Positions 1,109 to 56,084 of a stretch of DNA of 64,000 bases are shown here, in pieces (positions within the stretch are counted from its first letter, which is position 1; every line of letters starts with the position of its first letter). The stretch comes from Comamonas endophytica (lineage in GTDB: Bacteria > Pseudomonadota > Gammaproteobacteria > Burkholderiales > Burkholderiaceae_C). The stretch lies in assembly GCF_023634805.2 (NCBI RefSeq), contig NZ_CP106882.1:558001-622000 (forward strand), written 5' to 3'. Made by a program: the position numbers and the translations under genes. The notes under the pieces are model-generated. The model made no database searches. It was given only the letters and a program-made list of their open reading frames with translations, and was not told the origin of the DNA.

Positions 1109-1155
1109 GACCCGGACTGGACTGCTCCCGGCCATGCGCGGCTGGCTTCAATGGG

Positions 1156-2133
1156 TCAGTTGGCGCTGAGCTTGCGCTCGCGCACCACCTTGCCCCACTG
1201 CTCGTATTCCTTTTGCATGAACGCCGCCAGTTCCGCGCGCGTGGTCGGCTGCGGCGTGAGGCCATGCTGCAGCAGGGCCTTCTTGACCTCCTCGTCGTTC
1301 AGCACCTTGACGATCTCGCGGTTCCAGCGATCGAGCATGGCTGCGGGCGTCTTCGCGGGTCCGACGAAGGCATACCAGTTGAGGGCTTCGAAGCCAGGGT
1401 ATCCGGCCTCGGCCACGGTGGGGATGTCGGGCAGGTAGGCCGGGCGCGCCAGGCCGGTCGTGGCCAGGGGAATCAGCTTGCCGGTCTCGACATGCGGCAT
1501 GGCCGTGGGCGGTGCGGCGAAGTAGCTGGTCACGCGCTCGCCCAGCAGGTCCTGCAGCGCCGGCGCCCCGCCCTTGTAGGGCACATGCACCATTTCCACG
1601 CCCGCGCGCTGGTTGAACAGCTCGCCCGCCAGGTGCGAGGCCGAGCCCGCGCCGGTCGAGGCGTAGTCCACGCTGCCAGGCTTCTTCTTGGCCAGCGCAA
1701 CGAAGTCCTTGAGCGTCTTCACGCCCGCGCCACGGTGCACGACCAGCACATTGGGGAAGTTCACGCCGCCGGAGATCGGCGCGAGATCCTTGAACGGGTC
1801 GTAGTTGAGCTTCATCAGGTGCGGCGCGATGGTCAGCGGACCGACCGAGCCGAACAGGATGACCGAGCCGTCGGCCGCGGCGCTGGCCACCTGGCCGTGG
1901 GCGATGTTGCCGCCCGCGCCACCCTTGTTCTCCACCACCACGCTCTGGCCGATGTTCTCGCCCAGCTTCTTGGCGATCAGCCGCGCGGACGCATCGGCGG
2001 CGCCGCCGGCGGCGAAGCCCACGACCATGGTCACGGGTTTCCTGGGCGGGAAGTCCTGCGACTGGGCCAGCGTGGCCAGCGAAAGCGCCGAGGAAGCCAG
2101 CAGTGCGGTATGCAAAAGGGTGCGACGTTGCAT
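1156..2133 (-). CDS. Bug/TctC-family periplasmic solute-binding protein
   Basis: The protein has 325 residues, typical for the Bug family that captures carboxylates in the periplasm. A signal peptide covers about residues 1-26 (MQRRTLLHTALLASSA...). Family landmarks follow: a GFAAGGAADASARLIA helix-capping motif, a VVENKGGAGGNIA motif and the late GTPGA-like repeat replaced by GLTPQP. It is last in a leftward run after LysR, tcuA and tcuB, with a 52-bp gap to tcuB. It may therefore bind the tricarballylate-like substrate of TcuAB. No TctA or TctB membrane partner is nearby, so it would have to use a permease encoded elsewhere or act as a sensor. Confidence 0.9.
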   Translation of the reverse strand: MQRRTLLHTALLASSALSLATLAQSQDFPPRKPVTMVVGFAAGGAADASARLIAKKLGENIGQSVVVENKGGAGGNIAHGQVASAAADGSVILFGSVGPLTIAPHLMKLNYDPFKDLAPISGGVNFPNVLVVHRGAGVKTLKDFVALAKKKPGSVDYASTGAGSASHLAGELFNQRAGVEMVHVPYKGGAPALQDLLGERVTSYFAAPPTAMPHVETGKLIPLATTGLARPAYLPDIPTVAEAGYPGFEALNWYAFVGPAKTPAAMLDRWNREIVKVLNDEEVKKALLQHGLTPQPTTRAELAAFMQKEYEQWGKVVRERKLSAN

Positions 2134-2185
2134 GGGAGTCTCCTATGGTTTTCGTATGGTTTTTGGAAATGGCAGGGACTGCGCT

Positions 2186-3409
2186 TCAGTCCGCACCCAG
2201 CCCGATGGGGTTGGGCTGGCGTTTCTCGGTGTTGTGGCGCAGCAGCGCGGCGGTGCGGAACACGCCATGCGCGAACTTGCCGTAGGGCAGCGTGGCGAAC
2301 AGCGCCATAACCGCGCCCAGGTGCAGGCACAGCAGCAGCGCCAGCGCCGGCGTGCCGCGCCCCAGCCACAGGGCCAGGCCGCTGGCGCTGACCAGGAACA
2401 GCAGCGCGATGAAGCCCAGGTCCATGGGTTTTTGCTGCAGATCGCCATGCTCCGGATGGCGCCGGCGGTTCAGGCGCCACAGGCCCGCCGTGCCCAGCAT
2501 CAGGCTCACGCCGCCGATCGCGCCGAGCACCTTGGGCAGGCTGGGCAGGTCATAGGGCGCGGCCCAGCCGAACACGTAGTGGTAGACCGTGGCCAGCGAG
2601 GTCGCGGCAAAGCACAGCATGAAGCCGTAGAACGTCAGGTGGTGGCAGCGGCGGCGCTGCAGGGTGTAGGCGTCGTCATCGTTACTGCAGCCGCTGCCAT
2701 GGCCGCCGTCGAGGTATTTGAGGCGCAGCACGTCCGATGCGGCTTCGGCCGCGGCGGGCCGGTTCACATCGGCCCCGCTGGTCGCTGGCTTGACCTCCCT
2801 CCAGAAGCGGCGCACGCCCATGAACAGCGCGAACACCACGAACAGGAACACCGGCGCGAACATGCCCACCAGCAGGTTGTGCGGGAACAGGCGGTAGAAA
2901 TCGCCGCCCAGCTCGGCGCCCCAGAGCGCGCCCAGGCCGTTGCCCTGCAGCACCACCGCCAGCACCAGGAACAGCGTCAGCGCGGCAACCAGCGCCAGCG
3001 ACAGCGTCAGGCCGTTGCGCCGGTAGAGGCTGCCCAGCGCCGGCGGCCAGGCATAGTCGGCATAGGTCTTGCCGCGCACCTCGGCCATGGCCTTGGGGAT
3101 GTTGACGGCGAATTCATGCGGGGGCGCGTACTGGCAGGCATGCAGGCAGGCGCCGCAGTTGTGGCACAGGTTGGCGAGGTAATGCACGTCGGCCGCGGCG
3201 AACTCCAGCCGGCGGGTCATCGCCGGGAACACCGCGCAGAAGCCCTCGCAATAGCGGCAGGCATTGCAGATCTGCAGCGCGCGCGCCACCTCGGCTTCCG
3301 GGGTGAGGGTCTGGATGGGAATGACCTTGTGGACGGGCTTGCTGGCGGCGACGGGCTGGCCCGAGGCGAGCGCCTTGGCGTCTTCGGTCAGGGAGTACAG
3401 GGTTTGCAT
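2186..3409 (-). CDS. tcuB: TcuB-type iron-sulfur membrane protein (tricarballylate utilisation)
   Basis: This 407-residue protein matches TcuB/CitB, which reoxidises the FAD of TcuA and passes electrons to the quinone pool. Two 4Fe-4S clusters are predicted from C48-x2-C51-x2-C54-x3-C58 ([12 protein letters not shown]) and C82-x2-C85-x2-C88-x3-C92 ([11 protein letters not shown]). The C-terminal two thirds contain about six hydrophobic segments with histidines able to hold haem or quinone. A cytoplasmic insert at about residues 225-255 carries [11 protein letters not shown]. It starts 10 bp after tcuA, so the two genes are co-transcribed. Length and motifs look intact. Confidence 0.92.
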
Positions 3410-3419
3410 GAATCGGTTC

Positions 3420-4838
3420 CTAGTCTTGGACGGCGCCGGCCACGGCGGGCCGGCCCTGTGCGGCCAGGGCCGCGTTGCGTCCGGCGATGCGGCCGAAGGC
3501 TGTGCCTATCGACATGCCCACGCCCGCCGTGTAGCCCTTGCCCAGCACGTTGCCGGCCATCATCTCGCCGGCCACGAACAGGTTGCGGCTTGCCTGGCCG
3601 GCAAAGCGCACGGCGGCGGTGTCGTCGACCTTGAGGCCCAGGTAGGTGAAGGTCACGCCCGGGCGCAGCGCATAGCCGTAGTACGGCGCGGTGTCGATCG
3701 GCCGGGCCCAGTGGGTCTTGGCGGGCGCCACACCCTCGGTGTGGCAGTCGTCCAGCGCCGTGTGGTCGAATTTGCCGACGCGGCAGGCCGCGTTGTAGCG
3801 CTCCATGGTCTGCATGAAGGTGCCGGCATCGAGGCCGAGCTTTTGCCCCAGCTCCGGCAGGCTGTCGGCGACGATGCCCGGGAATACCGGCGGCATGAAG
3901 CGTCCGATGGCCTTGGCGTCGATGATCGAATAGGCGACCTGGCCCGGCTGCTGCGCCACGAGCCGGCCCCAGATCGCATAGCGCTTGGGCCAGAAGTCCT
4001 CGCCTTCGTCGTAGAAGCGCTCGGCCTCGCGGTTGACCACCACGCCCAGCGAGACGCAGTCGATGCGCGTGCAGATGCCGCCGTCGTAGAGCGGCGCGCG
4101 CGCGTCGATGGCCACCATGTGCGCCTGCGTCGGGTCGCCGATGCGGTCGGCCTGGTGCTCCTCGAGCATGTGGCGCAGCAGCACGCCCTGGTTGTAGGCC
4201 GTGCCGCGGATCAGGAAGTTGTCCGAAGGCCATTCGCCGCGCGCGTTCTGGCCCCAGGCCTCGCGCAGCCATTCGCGGTTGGATTCGAACCCGCCGGCCG
4301 CGAGCACGCAGCTTTTGGCGGTGATGCGCTGGCCGTCGCACCAGGCGGCAACGAAGCGGCCATCCTCGATCTCGAGCCGCTCGACGGGCGCTTCGTAGCG
4401 GATCTCGACGCCCAGCGCCTCGGCGCTGCGGAAATAGGCATTGACCAGGGCCTTGCCGCCACCCATGAAGAAGGCATTGGTGCGCGCGACATGCAGCGCG
4501 CCCGACAGCGGCGGCTGGAAATGCACGCCATGGCGGCGCATCCAGTCGCGGCAGGTCGAGGACGCGCGGATCACCAGGCGCGCCAGATGCTCGTCGGTGA
4601 GCCCGCCCGTGACCTTGAGCAGATCCTGCCAGTATTCCTCCTCGGGGTAGGCTTCGACCAGTACGTCCTGCGGCGCGTCGTGCATGCAGCGCAGGTTGCG
4701 GGTGTGGGCGGAGTTGCCGCCGCGCCAGGCGCGCGGGGCAGACTCCAGCAGCAGCACGCGCATGCCCGCCTCGCGCGCCATCAGGGCGGCGCAGAGGGCA
4801 GCGTTGCCACCACCGATGACCAGAACATCGGTGTCCAT
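3420..4838 (-). CDS. tcuA: FAD-dependent tricarballylate dehydrogenase TcuA
   Basis: The 472-residue flavoprotein belongs to the fumarate reductase/succinate dehydrogenase flavoprotein superfamily. The N-terminal Rossmann motif [21 protein letters not shown] (residues 5-25) binds FAD, and the C-terminal [17 protein letters not shown] segment closes the flavin site. TcuA oxidises tricarballylate to cis-aconitate in Salmonella. Here it is followed directly by tcuB and then a Bug gene, and preceded by a LysR gene in the same orientation, which resembles the tcuRABC layout with Bug in place of the TcuC permease. The assignment as TcuA rests on this pairing; related dehydrogenases acting on similar acids cannot be excluded. 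Confidence 0.9.
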
Positions 4839-4928
4839 GGAAATTCTCCTTGCAGTCTCTCTCTCGGGGGGAGCTCTACTGTAGGAATCGATGCGGCCCG
4901 GGTGCAGGGGACCCGGCGCATGGGGGTA

Positions 4929-5903
4929 TCAGCGTTCGTGATGGATAGGCGTGGTGCCGCTCCACGCGCCCGAGGACACCAGTTCGCGCACGCAGTCGAC
5001 CAGCACCACGCGCGCGGCCAGCGCGGCCGGCGACAGCTCGTCCTCGGAGAGGGTGCACAGCAAATTGGTGCGCCGTGCATCGCGGTCGGTGATCAATGCC
5101 GAATCGAAGCGCTGCGCCGCGTCCTCGAAACGGCTCATTGCCGCCCAGGGCTGCAGCGTCGACCCCAGGCCCGCATCGACGGCCGCCATGACCATGGAAA
5201 GCGAGTCGACTTCAAGCACCACATGCGGCGTGAAGCGCGCCTGCGCAAAGGCCGTGTCCAGCGTGCTGCGCAGGCCGTGCTGGCCCGTGGGCAGGATCAG
5301 CGGCTCGCGTGCGAGGTCGCCCAGCGCCATGGCTGCAGGCAGCGCACCGCCTTGCGGATGGCGCAGCGAACGGATCAGGTACAACTGCTCCTCGATCAGC
5401 GGGTGCACCTGCCAGCGCCGGCCGCCGGGGCGTGGCTGGCCGCCCTCGCTGCCATGCAGACGGGAGTCGAACAGCACGGCCATGTCGAGCGCGCGCGCAT
5501 TGAGCATCTCCGCGAGATGGCCCGACATGCTTTCCACCAGGTGCAGCCGCACGTCGGGATAGCGCGCGCGCATGGCCCGCATCAGCGGCAGCGCCAGGAT
5601 GGTGGCCGTGGTGGGCGCCAGGCCCAGGCTGACCGAGCCCGACAGGCGCGACCGCCGGGCACTGCGCACTGCCTGGTCGGCATGGCGCAGCGCCAGCTGG
5701 GCTTCGCGAAAGAAGGCCACGCCGGCCTCGGTCGGCACCACGCCGCGCGGCGTGCGCTGCAGCAGGCGCACGGCCAGCTCGCTCTCCAGCCGCGTGATCT
5801 GCTGGCTCAAAGCCGACTGCACCACGTCGAGTTCGCGTGCCGCCCGGCTCATCGAGCCCATTTCCACGATGCGCACGAAGTAGCGCAGCTGCCGCAATTC
5901 CAT
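4929..5903 (-). CDS. LysR-family regulator, TcuR-like by context
   Basis: The ATG at 5903 gives the canonical start MELRQLRYFVRIVEMGSMS; a nine-residue extension upstream is less likely. The 324-residue protein has an N-terminal LysR helix-turn-helix (AARELDVVQSALSQQITRLE) and a C-terminal effector domain. It lies 90 bp upstream of tcuA on the same strand, so it probably controls tcuAB and the downstream Bug gene. NAC-like LysR proteins share the MELRQLRYFV start, so the effector, presumably a tricarboxylate, is only inferred from position. Confidence 0.88.
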   Translation of the reverse strand: MELRQLRYFVRIVEMGSMSRAARELDVVQSALSQQITRLESELAVRLLQRTPRGVVPTEAGVAFFREAQLALRHADQAVRSARRSRLSGSVSLGLAPTTATILALPLMRAMRARYPDVRLHLVESMSGHLAEMLNARALDMAVLFDSRLHGSEGGQPRPGGRRWQVHPLIEEQLYLIRSLRHPQGGALPAAMALGDLAREPLILPTGQHGLRSTLDTAFAQARFTPHVVLEVDSLSMVMAAVDAGLGSTLQPWAAMSRFEDAAQRFDSALITDRDARRTNLLCTLSEDELSPAALAARVVLVDCVRELVSSGAWSGTTPIHHER

Positions 5904-6064
5904 TGGCTGTCCTGTTCCGCGCCCCGTCACACCCGCGGAGCCCGGCTATCCTAGCCCAGGCGGCGCGGCGGGGCGGATGAAGCGCATTGGCCGCCCCATC
6001 CGCCGTCGCCCCGCCATCGGCGTCCAGGGCTGCATGCCGGCCTCCACGCGCAGTGCCACTCGCG

Positions 6065-7384: not shown

Positions 7385-7500
7385 TTTCGTCGCTGCATGA
7401 GCCCGCGGTGGTCAGACACAAGCCATTCATCCGCAACGCCCCGCCCGGAGCCCACGCGTGCGCCGATGCGGCAGGCGGGGCACTTGTGCGTCCATAGCTT

Positions 7501-7896
7501 CACAAGATGGGGGTGAAGGCGCCAGTGCATCTCTCGACGCCACGCCCATATCCTGCAAGCCTGCACCGCGTGCCTTGGATGCAGCCGCAGCCAGCGTGCG
7601 GGCGGGTTTCCAGAGCCCACCCCTTTCTTGTGCAAGTTCCTGCCTTTTGTGCGGCAGCCCGCTGGAAGAACCCGTCAATCCATGGCCCCGCTCCCTGAAG
7701 GTCCCCGCCGCGCCCGTCTCGAACCGTGCGCTGCACAAGCCAGGGGTGGGTCGGCAAGCATGCAGGCTGGTGCCCCGGCGTTCGAACATCGCTGCGTCGC
7801 GGTGCCGCTTCCAGCGTATGGATGCACAAGACAGGGGTGAACAGGCACAGGCGCTGATCCTCCCTGCGGCCGGACTGCCACCCCCTGGTTTGTGCA
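7501..7896. repeat. Iteron cluster downstream of the rep gene (five copies)
   Basis: Five copies of the sequence TCACCCCCATCTTGTGCAA or its complement lie within 400 bp past the rep stop codon. Copies at 7618-7635 and 7879-7896 read on the plus strand; copies at 7501-7515, 7732-7748 and 7823-7840 read on the minus strand. The core TTGTG (or CACAA) and a run of C (or G) are constant and the middle three bases vary. The tract from 7385 to 7904 has no credible gene. These match the copies upstream of rep and are taken as Rep binding sites. Confidence 0.75.
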
Positions 7897-7904
7897 GGAT
7901 CGGG

Positions 7905-9437
7905 TCAAGCGCTGAGCATGCGCTCCATCATGGCGACGATCTCGGCGTCGGTGACCTCTTCGCCCCAGAGCTTCCTGGCGTACCAGGCGTGGAACGAGGG
8001 CAGGACGCCGGCGCGGTTGCGCCCGATCTTGATCCTGTTGGCCTCGACGCCGAGGGTGGCGTTGTATTCGTCGTAGATCGCCTGCAGCGCCGGCTTTTCC
8101 AGCTCCCCGAGAATCACCTTCAGATCCAGGATGCGCTGCTTCTCCACGGCGGCGATGAGCTTGGCACGGCCCTTGTTGAGGCCGTTCCTGGCCTCGGATT
8201 TCGTGGTCGCGGCCCTGGGTTTCCTGGCGGCGGGTGGCGCAGCTTCGGCTTCCTGCACGCTCGCGGGGGGCATGCGGTGCAGGCCGTCCGCCACGGGAAA
8301 CAGCTCTGCGGTCGCTGGCGTGGCCCTGCCGTCCAGGAAGTCCTGGTAGTGGCCCGATTTCAGCGAGGAGAGGAAGTACCGGCTGGGGTACGTCAGCTTG
8401 CGCAGCTTGGACTCGGTGACGCGCCACTTCGTGTGCTTGAGCGCTCCCTCGATCTGCTCCTCGCTGTAGGTGCTCAGCAGCTTGTAGATGGCCTTGTCGA
8501 CCAGACCCAGCGCCTGCATGGCATCCACCAGGTGCTTCTTGGTCTCGGAGTTGCTGTTGGCCGCCGACATCTCCAGGGCCAGCTTCTGCCGGCTGACGTG
8601 GAAGCGCAGGTTCGTCACCTTGGTCTTGTAGCGCTCGGTCTCGACCTCGATGTACAGCTTGGTCGAGGCGTTGATGTCCTTGATCGCAGGATCCAGGTAG
8701 CGCTCCTTGAAGGTGCTCCATTGCTGGGCCTTGTTGGGAATGCTCTTGGAGGCGACCAGCATGTCGCGCAGGTCCTGCCAAGGCACGCGGCGGGTCGAGC
8801 CAATGCCCAGGTAGCGCGAGCAGAACTCGAACAGCGGCACCGAGCAGACCTTCGACAGCGCGCTGAGCTCGAGCAGGTCGAGGCTGGTGTACGAGGGGCT
8901 GTCGCCCAGCAGCAGCAAGGCCTTGGACTCGATCTTGAAGGTGATCTCGCCGGCATAGAGCTTGGCGTAGGGGAACACCACGGCGAAGTGCTTGGCCAGC
9001 CCCTTTTCCTCGAACACATCGAGCCGCAGCTTGATCGACATGAGTTCATCGATGGTTTTCTCGATGTGCTCGTAGTTGCGCGTCCTGACGTTCAGCAGGC
9101 GCAGCATCTCTTCCACCGAGATCTTCCAGGTGGCCGGCTCCACGGGCTGGTTCTGCTGCGCGTGCCGCAGCATGATGTTGGTGAGCTTTTGCTGCATGAC
9201 CGTCATGACGGCATGCGGCTTGTTGTGGACCAGGGGATTGGGCTTCTTGAAGTTGGAGCCCTGGTTCTTGCGCTGGATGAAGAAGGTGGCGAAGGGCTTG
9301 TCGGCGCCGTCGGCAGGATCGGGCGGCAGCAGCGCCAGGGGGATGATCTGCGTGCCCGCCCCGTCGCCTTGCACGAGTTCCTTCGCGTCGACGTCGATGG
9401 CGCTTTGGCTGGCTTTGCGCCGGGTTGGTTTTGTCAC
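7905..9437 (-). CDS. Rep_3/RepB-type replication initiator protein
   Basis: This 510-residue protein resembles initiators of iteron-controlled plasmids (Rep_3 superfamily). The region from about residue 60 to 290 reads as two winged-helix modules (for example LTNIMLRHAQQNQ, WKISVEEMLRLLNVR and VCSVPLFEFCSRYLGIG). The C-terminal part has a basic, Ala/Pro-rich linker and a conserved tail (NRAGVLPSFHAWYARKLWG). The start is a GTG at 9437 without a strong ribosome-binding site; the next in-frame Met is far inside the fold. At 510 residues it is longer than the 230-330 usual for small-plasmid Rep_3 proteins. Iterons on both sides strongly support a role in origin binding. No partition genes are adjacent. 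Confidence 0.85.
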   Translation of the reverse strand: MTKPTRRKASQSAIDVDAKELVQGDGAGTQIIPLALLPPDPADGADKPFATFFIQRKNQGSNFKKPNPLVHNKPHAVMTVMQQKLTNIMLRHAQQNQPVEPATWKISVEEMLRLLNVRTRNYEHIEKTIDELMSIKLRLDVFEEKGLAKHFAVVFPYAKLYAGEITFKIESKALLLLGDSPSYTSLDLLELSALSKVCSVPLFEFCSRYLGIGSTRRVPWQDLRDMLVASKSIPNKAQQWSTFKERYLDPAIKDINASTKLYIEVETERYKTKVTNLRFHVSRQKLALEMSAANSNSETKKHLVDAMQALGLVDKAIYKLLSTYSEEQIEGALKHTKWRVTESKLRKLTYPSRYFLSSLKSGHYQDFLDGRATPATAELFPVADGLHRMPPASVQEAEAAPPAARKPRAATTKSEARNGLNKGRAKLIAAVEKQRILDLKVILGELEKPALQAIYDEYNATLGVEANRIKIGRNRAGVLPSFHAWYARKLWGEEVTDAEIVAMMERMLSA

Positions 9438-9464
9438 TTTGGTGGACCCACAACGCTGCTGCGT

Positions 9465-9507
9465 TTCTTTATTTTCAATACTACTTTAAGTAGTTTCCTA
9501 CTTTAAG
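9465..9507. promoter_or_regulatory. AT-rich tract with operator-like palindrome upstream of rep
   Basis: This is the only AT-rich stretch between the rep start and the iterons. It contains ACTACTTTAAGTAGT at 9480-9494, with 7-bp arms around a central T, and a direct copy of CTACTTTAAG at 9498-9507. The position suits a rep promoter/autoregulation site or the duplex-unwinding element of the origin. No experimental start site is known, so either role is inference. Confidence 0.5.
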
Positions 9508-9546
9508 CAGCGCAAAGCCAAGGCTGGCAAGGCCCGCGAACTGGTC

Positions 9547-9656
9547 GCCGCCCCTGCCTTGTGAAGCGTTCACCCGTATATTGTGAAGCAATCTCCCTGG
9601 ATTTGTGCAGACCTGCCCCTTCGATTGTGATCGGCTGCCCCTTGGTTTGTGCCGGC
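9547..9656. repeat. Five tandem iterons in exact 22-bp phase
   Basis: The core TTGTG occurs at 9559, 9581, 9603, 9625 and 9647, a constant period of 22 bp. Each copy has a C-rich left half (for example TGCCCCTTCGATTGTGA). Two helical turns per repeat places all copies on one DNA face, as in classical iteron origins (known for Rep-type plasmids). All five read on the plus strand, pointing away from rep, which is on the minus strand. Confidence 0.8.
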
Positions 9657-9672
9657 CGCCCGCACCCGTGCA

Positions 9673-10053
9673 TTCACAAGATAGGGGGGAGCGGGCCACC
9701 GCTGCAATCCAAAACACGGCTGGCTGCGGCCGGGGCGGGTCCGCGGCGCAGGGCTGCAACCCGGCGAGGCGGCATCGCCCCGCCTGGCGGACAGGTCCGA
9801 CCCCGCGGGGTCACCCCTGTCTTGTGCAATCTGCCGCATTCTGGAGCGCGCAAGCCATGCATCCTGCCGGTGCCTGCGGGAAGGGTCACCCCCATCTTGT
9901 GCAAACATCCTGCCGCAGCGGGAACGCGGCACGCCCGGCCAGCTGGCTCCGCAGTGTTCCGCAGGCAATGCACCCCCATCTTGTGAAGATTTGCAGGAGG
10001 GAGCGCCACTGCGGGATTACCCCATTGCGGGGCCTGCACAAGCTGGGGGTGAA
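9673..10053. repeat. Dispersed iterons distal to the phased cluster (five copies)
   Basis: Copies lie at 9673-9691 (minus orientation), 9811-9829, 9886-9904, 9971-9987 (plus orientation) and 10035-10053 (minus orientation). The best copy, at 9886, reads TCACCCCCATCTTGTGCAA and defines the consensus. These distal copies are closer to each other in sequence than the phased ones are. Spacing is irregular. The interval 9657-10352 otherwise shows no credible gene. Confidence 0.72.
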
Positions 10054-10267
10054 GGCGCTGCGAGGCCGGGGCATCGCAGCGGATGACCATGCTCCCGGCA
10101 TTCTTGCCGATGGCTGCTGCCCGGCGGCACCGCGCCCTGATGGCAGGCGATGCGGTGCGGGACTGCCGGTCCGCACGCGGGGGTATGGAAGGCCCCCTTC
10201 CGGATGGCCAAGGCCGCCTTCCCACAGGGCGGATTTCATCGCGGCTTGGCTGCCGGCCGATACGAAG

Positions 10268-10296
10268 CAAGGCTGCGGTGGAATTCCGCAGCCTTG
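10268..10296. terminator. Perfect 11-bp inverted repeat, possible terminator of the SDR gene
   Basis: CAAGGCTGCGG and its complement are separated by a 7-nt loop. The hairpin lies 57 bp past the stop codon of the leftward SDR gene. No T-run follows on the minus strand, so it may be a weak or factor-dependent terminator, or a boundary of the origin region. The rest of 10054-10352 shows nothing recognisable. Confidence 0.4.
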
Positions 10297-10352
10297 CCAA
10301 TCCTGCGCCTGGACCAGGCGGCCATGCCGCCCACCCTCGGCGCCGGTTCCAA

Positions 10353-55790: not shown

Positions 55791-56084
55791 ATGCCAAGCT
55801 ACAAGGAACTGCTCGAGCAACGCAATCAATTGGAAAACCAGATCAAGGAGGCCCGGGATAAGGAGCTGGCCGACGCCATCGACCAGGTGCGTTCCCTGGT
55901 TTCGGAGTTCGAATTGACCGAACAGGATGTTTTTCCGCCTGCGCGCAGCAAGCGGCCCGGCACTGCAGGCAGCAAGGTCGCGCCCAAATACAAGAATCCG
56001 CAGACGGGCGAGACCTGGACAGGCCGTGGCAAGGCGCCCAAGTGGATTGCCAAGGAAACCGATCGCGAGAAGTTCGCCATTTGA
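55791..56084 (+). CDS. H-NS histone-like nucleoid protein
   Basis: The 97-residue protein has an N-terminal coiled coil for oligomerisation (YKELLEQRNQLENQIKEAR) and a C-terminal H-NS DNA-binding module (KYKNPQTGETWTGRGKAPKW). It binds AT-rich DNA and silences transferred genes. An AAAGGAAAGC site precedes the ATG. It ends in a strong terminator and adjoins the AT-rich stretch at 55.1-55.7 kb. Confidence 0.95.
   Translation: MPSYKELLEQRNQLENQIKEARDKELADAIDQVRSLVSEFELTEQDVFPPARSKRPGTAGSKVAPKYKNPQTGETWTGRGKAPKWIAKETDREKFAI

Follow-up and report, generated by a model that had tools for sequence, protein, structure and literature searches.

In the RepFIA and RepFIB replicons of the F plasmid, iterons lie upstream of the initiator gene, at the origin, and also downstream, as a control locus; DnaA sites are described for both F and FIB (passages of PMC11983097 and PMC13028717). 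In Vibrio cholerae, the ori2 region has a phased array beside an AT-rich stretch and the initiator promoter, along with a flanking negative-control region containing more sites (excerpt of PMC6090056). The c2 and c3 replicons of Burkholderia cenocepacia carry a RepA-like gene and iterons of 19-21 bp, some of them reversed, with an extra remote cluster in c2; according to the same portion of that source, these origins were found via GC-skew minima and replicate bidirectionally (PMC4948915).

The locus described here lies in a window of 64,000 nucleotides from Comamonas endophytica (G000:C2:558001-622000), and is centered on a gene which the original prediction had assigned to a Rep_3-type initiator. 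Both Rep_3 domains of the product (PF01051/PF21205) exceed the curated cut-offs, with 43.2 and 44.1 bits against 22.4 and 21.1, and a PDB profile search with Rep matched RepE of F (E value 0.0029). No other PF01051 match was found in the genome. In a fold comparison the Rep_3 initiators ranked top, with RctB among the rows, using a model of poor quality (mean pLDDT 62.9). The length of 510 residues, previously regarded as long for the family, is indeed about twice that of F RepE (251 residues; PDB: 1rep), but is normal for the clade, in which 23 proteins among the matches listed (own included, admitted at 0.55-1.75 times the query length) have 456-522 amino acids. Two proteins with 85-89% identity to Rep are encoded on contigs of up to 130,698 and 69,171 b. 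Comparison of Rep with the three close relatives gave dN/dS values of 0.08-0.15 (NG86), which shows that Rep is under purifying selection. The locus had been predicted to be a functional or fossil origin; the assignment to a Rep_3 iteron origin holds, while a fossil is unlikely because the frame is open over all 510 codons, with no internal stop, and because of the low dN/dS. The gene is flanked by 15 iterons of 19 bases each, 10 upstream and five downstream. The features are as follows:

1124..5915, minus strand: tcu block, the left neighbor outside the replicon, 89% identical to sister megaplasmid u1 but inverted and relocated; it marks the rearranged side of the insert
7498..7516, minus strand: downstream (inc-like) iteron, from the site scan
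7617..7635, plus strand: downstream (inc-like) iteron, from the site scan
7731..7749, minus strand: downstream (inc-like) iteron, from the site scan
7822..7840, minus strand: downstream (inc-like) iteron, from the site scan
7879..7897, plus strand: downstream (inc-like) iteron, weak (15.2 bits), from the site scan
7905..9437, minus strand: rep, 510-residue Rep_3 initiator; Rep3_N/WH1 at residues 64-206, Rep3_C/WH2 at 220-280, extension to 510
9460..9509, no strand: 50-base stretch with the highest AT content of 7400-10300 (72%), lying between array and rep; block kept in four replicons
9548..9566, plus strand: origin array iteron 1; in the three relatives +111 to +113 relative to the start codon
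9570..9588, plus strand: origin array iteron 2, strong, from the site scan; kept in relatives
9592..9610, plus strand: origin array iteron 3, from the site scan; kept in relatives
9614..9632, plus strand: origin array iteron 4, very weak (4.1 bits), retained for the 22-base register
9636..9654, plus strand: origin array iteron 5, weak (10.6 bits), from the site scan and the register
9672..9690, minus strand: distal upstream iteron, inverted; +235 to +239 in relatives
9811..9829, plus strand: distal upstream iteron, strong, from the site scan and relatives
9886..9904, plus strand: distal upstream iteron, strong, from the site scan and relatives; exact match to the consensus of the original prediction
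9970..9988, plus strand: distal upstream iteron, from the site scan and relatives
10034..10052, minus strand: distal upstream iteron, inverted; +576 to +597 in relatives

Thus, all of the ten upstream and five downstream copies reported previously, in both orientations, could be placed. The origin array comprises five iterons, all on the plus strand and in exact 22-base steps, whose starts lie between 111 and 199 bases away from the start codon of Rep, i.e., the helically phased direct repeats near rep that characterize Rep_3 origins. The fourth site was placed by the 22-base register, and sites 4 and 5 are counted as iterons because of this exact register and because the relatives show a similar degenerate pattern. 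Relative to the Rep start, the upstream sites of the window are at +111 to +199, +235, +374, +449, +533, and +597. The AT-rich block at 9460-9509 is likely to be an unwinding element and/or the rep promoter region; no match to a promoter consensus was found there. A DnaA box at the origin, as in F/FIB-type replicons, was not found in 7400-10300 with up to one mismatch to TTATCCACA, a search that weaker boxes would escape. When the sites were re-scored with a matrix trained on 29 sites from the three relatives only, 13 of the 15 iterons reached 14 bits, three of these with only about 15 bits.

Matches to Rep at E <= 1e-3 are present in seven of 53 genomes of the genus, and in four, own included, the identity is at least 80%. 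The close relatives are the 175-kb plasmid unnamed2 of Comamonas antarctica 16-35-5 (NZ_CP054842, G003; hereafter u2), G026, and G006; the records L003 and L004 seem to duplicate the G006 and G026 contigs, and were not counted separately. The prediction implied that the repeats should be conserved in relatives with this rep, and the upstream positions and orientations do recur in all three. Their array sites are at +111/+113, +133/+135, and +155/+157, with later sites mostly below 15 bits, and are followed by an inverted site (+235 to +239), three sites on the plus strand (+342 to +374, +417 to +439, and +513 to +536), and another inverted site (+576 to +597). An extra inverted site in G026 and G006 (+827, +898) is absent from the window. 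All four replicons combine low scores at array sites 3-5 with high scores at most flanking sites, and in the four-replicon alignment the iterons and the AT block stand out as islands amid diverged sequence. Farther away, a Rep with 44% identity (G046, pNFYY023-1) has variant sites 1.0-2.7 kb upstream in a layout that is not shared, and no comparable iteron set was found with the Rep proteins of 28% identity (G045, G049). A scan of the 53 genomes with the iteron pattern, allowing two mismatches, gave 10, 6, 9, and 10 matches in the four carriers of a close Rep and no more than four in each of the other 49, while a reversed control pattern gave at most two per genome. The co-occurrence of iteron and Rep, proposed earlier as a check, is therefore borne out, with the genomes having at least six matches being exactly the four carriers. 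One match per carrier sits on a contig with neither rep nor u2-type par genes.

The downstream cluster, which in the window follows rep directly, is not conserved in place. There is none in the 1,093 b present in G006, and in G026 the nearest two sites lie about 1.8-2.0 kb from rep. In u2, the genes after rep are hns, GNAT, a transporter gene, parA, and parB, with four iterons just past parB and three more within type IV secretion genes. G026 has iterons past the u2-type parB in addition to the two mentioned above. In G006, where rep and parAB are on separate contigs, three iterons lie past parB on contig C761. An H-NS gene is present at 55791-56081 of the window, 46 kb from rep, and is 70% identical to the H-NS gene beside rep in the 175-kb plasmid. 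The original prediction considered a downstream cluster to be unusual, but the FIA and FIB replicons of F carry control iterons downstream of rep (passages of PMC11983097 and PMC13028717), and the arrangement is thus classical; by sequence, the five sites within 7498-7897 would be the corresponding putative control sites. The prediction was right that no parAB adjoins rep: along the circle, two par systems are found at distances of about 89 and 95-99 kb. Neither C2 nor C3 has a close match to the parAB of u2; the best matches are 43-44% identical and part of another par operon.

C2, the contig carrying the window, has 647,507 b, of which the first 54,876 align with the last 54,872 (99.96%, 0 mismatches, 19 gap openings). 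Given these overlapping ends, C2 represents a circle of about 592.6 kb (592,638 b) left unresolved in the assembly. C3, the third replicon, is likewise circular at about 90.9 kb (90,872 b), with an end overlap of 40.2 kb; genes within the overlaps of C2 (54.9 kb) and C3 are duplicated in the assembly. Whether the replicon lacks dnaA had been suggested as a check; the gene is on C1, a contig of 3,710,006 b, where the sampled tiles have mostly negative skew before dnaA and mostly positive skew after it. A chromid combines plasmid-type replication with chromosome-like composition and core genes. The GC content of C2 (0.668) is chromosome-like in this sense, as nine C1 tiles range from 0.648 to 0.697, and no tRNA genes were found on C2 in a tile-wise scan, which would miss genes cut at a tile edge. 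These results agree with the suggestion of a megaplasmid or chromid, as the replicon is a circular megaplasmid, distinct from the main chromosome.

C2 is largely collinear with plasmid unnamed1 of C. antarctica 16-35-5 (u1; NZ_CP054841, 642,987 b). The two share 58 blocks of at least 1.5 kb, which amount to 200,461 b in matching orientation and 7,403 b in inverted orientation; a few blocks have moved. No PF01051 match was found in u1 or C3, and the window-trained matrix, at a threshold of 17 bits, found no iteron in either of these or in 580,000 sampled bases of C1. C3 has accessory DNA in common with u2. Both C2 and u1 carry a KorB/IncC-like par pair as well as a second operon, parA-parB-HTH308, located outside the window at L025:9669-13392 (69.7-73.4 kb of C2), about 97 kb from the Rep_3 unit. 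HTH308 is found in seven of the 53 genomes, including all four with the close Rep (hypergeometric 1.2e-4, uncorrected for kinship), and five of eight plasmid records with HTH308 have no PF01051 match, this being the only family sought. Its homologues are mostly annotated as hypothetical or helix-turn-helix proteins. The Pfam search returned PF25213 alone, with 24.5 bits under a cut-off of 35, and the NCBIfam search returned nothing up to E 0.01; in the model, residues 20-117 form a winged helix (mean pLDDT 79.6). A relative of HTH308 (50-53%) follows the u2-type parAB in G006 (C761, L150, 5390-6274), with an iteron inside its frame.

RepABC replicons are defined by a third gene, RepC, with its own Pfam family, and by the order parA-parB-third gene with a structured intergenic RNA. 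The operon differs from RepABC in the former respect, HTH308 having no above-cut-off Pfam family, and shares the gene order and the structured intergenic RNA, the antisense RNA itself being putative. Upstream of HTH308, C2, u1, G026, G006 C47, G038, and pTX1 each have four parS-like palindromes; the pattern used, which was tuned to this group, found none in the remaining seven sources scanned. The leader lies as follows:

L025:10566-10805, minus strand: HTH308 leader with two-codon frame, also in ten relatives

Of 30 pairs predicted by RNAalifold for the leader, 11 show a double-sided change in one or more sequences. In the three main helices, which account for 24 of the 30 pairs, 93.9% of cells pair and eight pairs change on both sides, as equaled by one of 500 shuffles. 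The covariation score was reached by none of 500 shuffles and the number of further pair types by 17 of 500, and slid versions scored far lower; the structure was derived from the same 11 sequences on which it was tested, which biases these figures in its favor, and two more divergent leaders were omitted. A two-codon frame (ATG, one codon, stop) is at the same place in 11 of 11 leaders, although its sense codon and stop vary. Based on these features, we infer that HTH308 could be an initiator under antisense control. The operon is probably the resident replicon of the megaplasmids, present before the Rep_3 unit was acquired, and is a candidate for an RNA-controlled, unrecognised replicon.

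One check proposed for the window failed, as there is neither a GC-skew minimum nor a sign change near 9.6 kb at rep. Instead, the cumulative skew falls almost monotonically round C2, and likewise in u1. The replication-type third-position skew, computed on genes from a simple script-based call, has a negative value in each quarter of C2; in u1 two quarters are negative and two are about 0. The most leading-strand-biased 8-mer in the C1 sample was GGGCAGGG (51:13), and the KOPS-like GGG[ACT]AGGG is distributed 21:63 on C2 (p 5e-6) and 21:59 on u1 (p 2.5e-5). On both megaplasmids a single sign prevails in the skew and in the KOPS-like motifs. The pattern fits, but does not prove, one-way replication from an origin common to C2 and u1. 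Unidirectional chromids have been reported in Pseudoalteromonas (excerpt of PMC12053903).

Taken together, these data make it fairly likely that the locus is an intact Rep_3 iteron replicon, and probably a captured second origin with flank-controlled initiation in a megaplasmid whose resident replicon is of the par-HTH type. As judged from the anatomy, Rep would fill the phased 22-base array of five iterons, in which the later sites are degenerate, open the AT-rich stretch between array and rep, and then load the replisome. The flanking, mostly strong iterons, five distal upstream and five downstream, would bind Rep more tightly than the array and would restrain initiation through titration and through handcuffing, the Rep-bridged pairing with the array, in the manner of the downstream iterons of FIA and FIB. 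The unit was probably captured from the 175-kb conjugative plasmid type, where its own parAB adjoins, and the megaplasmid copy would have lost its par genes afterwards. Since no sister carrying this insertion turned up, selection at the present location is inseparable from selection before capture.

An origin of the repeats by chance or low complexity in a GC-rich intergenic region is exceedingly improbable. Apart from the weakness of some of the 15 sites, nothing speaks for it, and it is refuted by the clustering of all 13 matches of at least 14 bits with the relatives-only matrix on the 592,638-base circle within 7498-10052, by Markov-1 resamples of 7400-10100 (n=500) with a mean of 0.014 matches and a maximum of one, by the exact 22-base spacing, and by the conservation over four replicons. 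It is unlikely, though conceivable, that the megaplasmid has the Rep_3 unit as its main or sole active origin, with parA-parB-HTH acting as a partition operon plus regulator. The unit is intact and has the sole PF01051 domain of the genome; moreover, pHG1 and a C. oxalaticus plasmid have a distant HTH homologue (34% over about 70%) near a Rep_3 gene and parAB, and thus the HTH protein need not be an initiator. However, sister u1 carries the par-HTH operon without Rep_3, five of the eight HTH-bearing plasmid records checked are likewise devoid of a match to PF01051, the one initiator family sought, and the shape of the skew profile is similar whether or not the unit is present.

Less likely still is a Rep_3 unit which no longer initiates but serves as a decoy, excluding incoming plasmids of the 175-kb type through incompatibility, a role that has been suggested for the weakened FIB of F. 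There are more iterons than the array needs, no close u2-type parAB is left, and array sites 4-5 are weak, while FIB has been discussed as a 'cheater' (passage of PMC11983097). C3, which shares accessory DNA with the 175-kb plasmid yet lacks Rep_3 and iterons, would also be in keeping with exclusion. On the other hand, the array and the AT block show the same conservation as in the 175-kb plasmid, the later array sites are degenerate in the relatives as well, and the FIB study, in the portion describing its test, detected neither advantage nor disadvantage (PMC11983097). An extension of the captured-second-origin reading to the whole molecule is tentative and less likely than not: the megaplasmid may be driven, largely one-way, by an undescribed replicon composed of parA-parB, a centromere-like cluster, and a winged-helix initiator, with a leader in which a two-codon frame and covarying hairpins face an antisense terminator hairpin, while Rep_3 would be a captured second origin held in check by the flanking iterons.

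The locus provides a clean, conserved example of an iteron replicon from a little-studied plasmid group. The low-scoring array sites 3-5 and high-scoring flanks of the four replicons make a simple affinity model of copy control testable, and the largely collinear pair of megaplasmids, with and without the Rep_3 unit, offers a direct test of the role of a second replicon.

With respect to the known systems, the Rep_3 unit belongs to an already known kind of iteron replicon. It resembles RepFIB/RepFIA of the F plasmid (RepE, oriS/ori2, incC) in its two-sided iterons and its presence on a multi-replicon molecule, and RepE is the nearest solved relative by profile. It departs from F in having five additional sites beyond the array, in the double length of its Rep, and in the lack of adjoining par genes; a search for a near-consensus DnaA box was negative. 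The V. cholerae origin (ori2-min/ori2-inc, RctB) has in common with it the phased array, the AT-rich stretch and the flanking sites, as well as the appearance of RctB among the fold rows, although the window has a single kind of 19-bp site, with no 39-mer type seen. Unlike the c2 and c3 origins of B. cenocepacia, which coincide with skew minima, the C2 megaplasmid described here has none. A further counterpart is u2 (175,731 b), with a Rep that is 76-80% identical and an equal upstream layout; there the genes from hns to parB lie between rep and the iterons, whereas in the window the cluster comes directly after rep.
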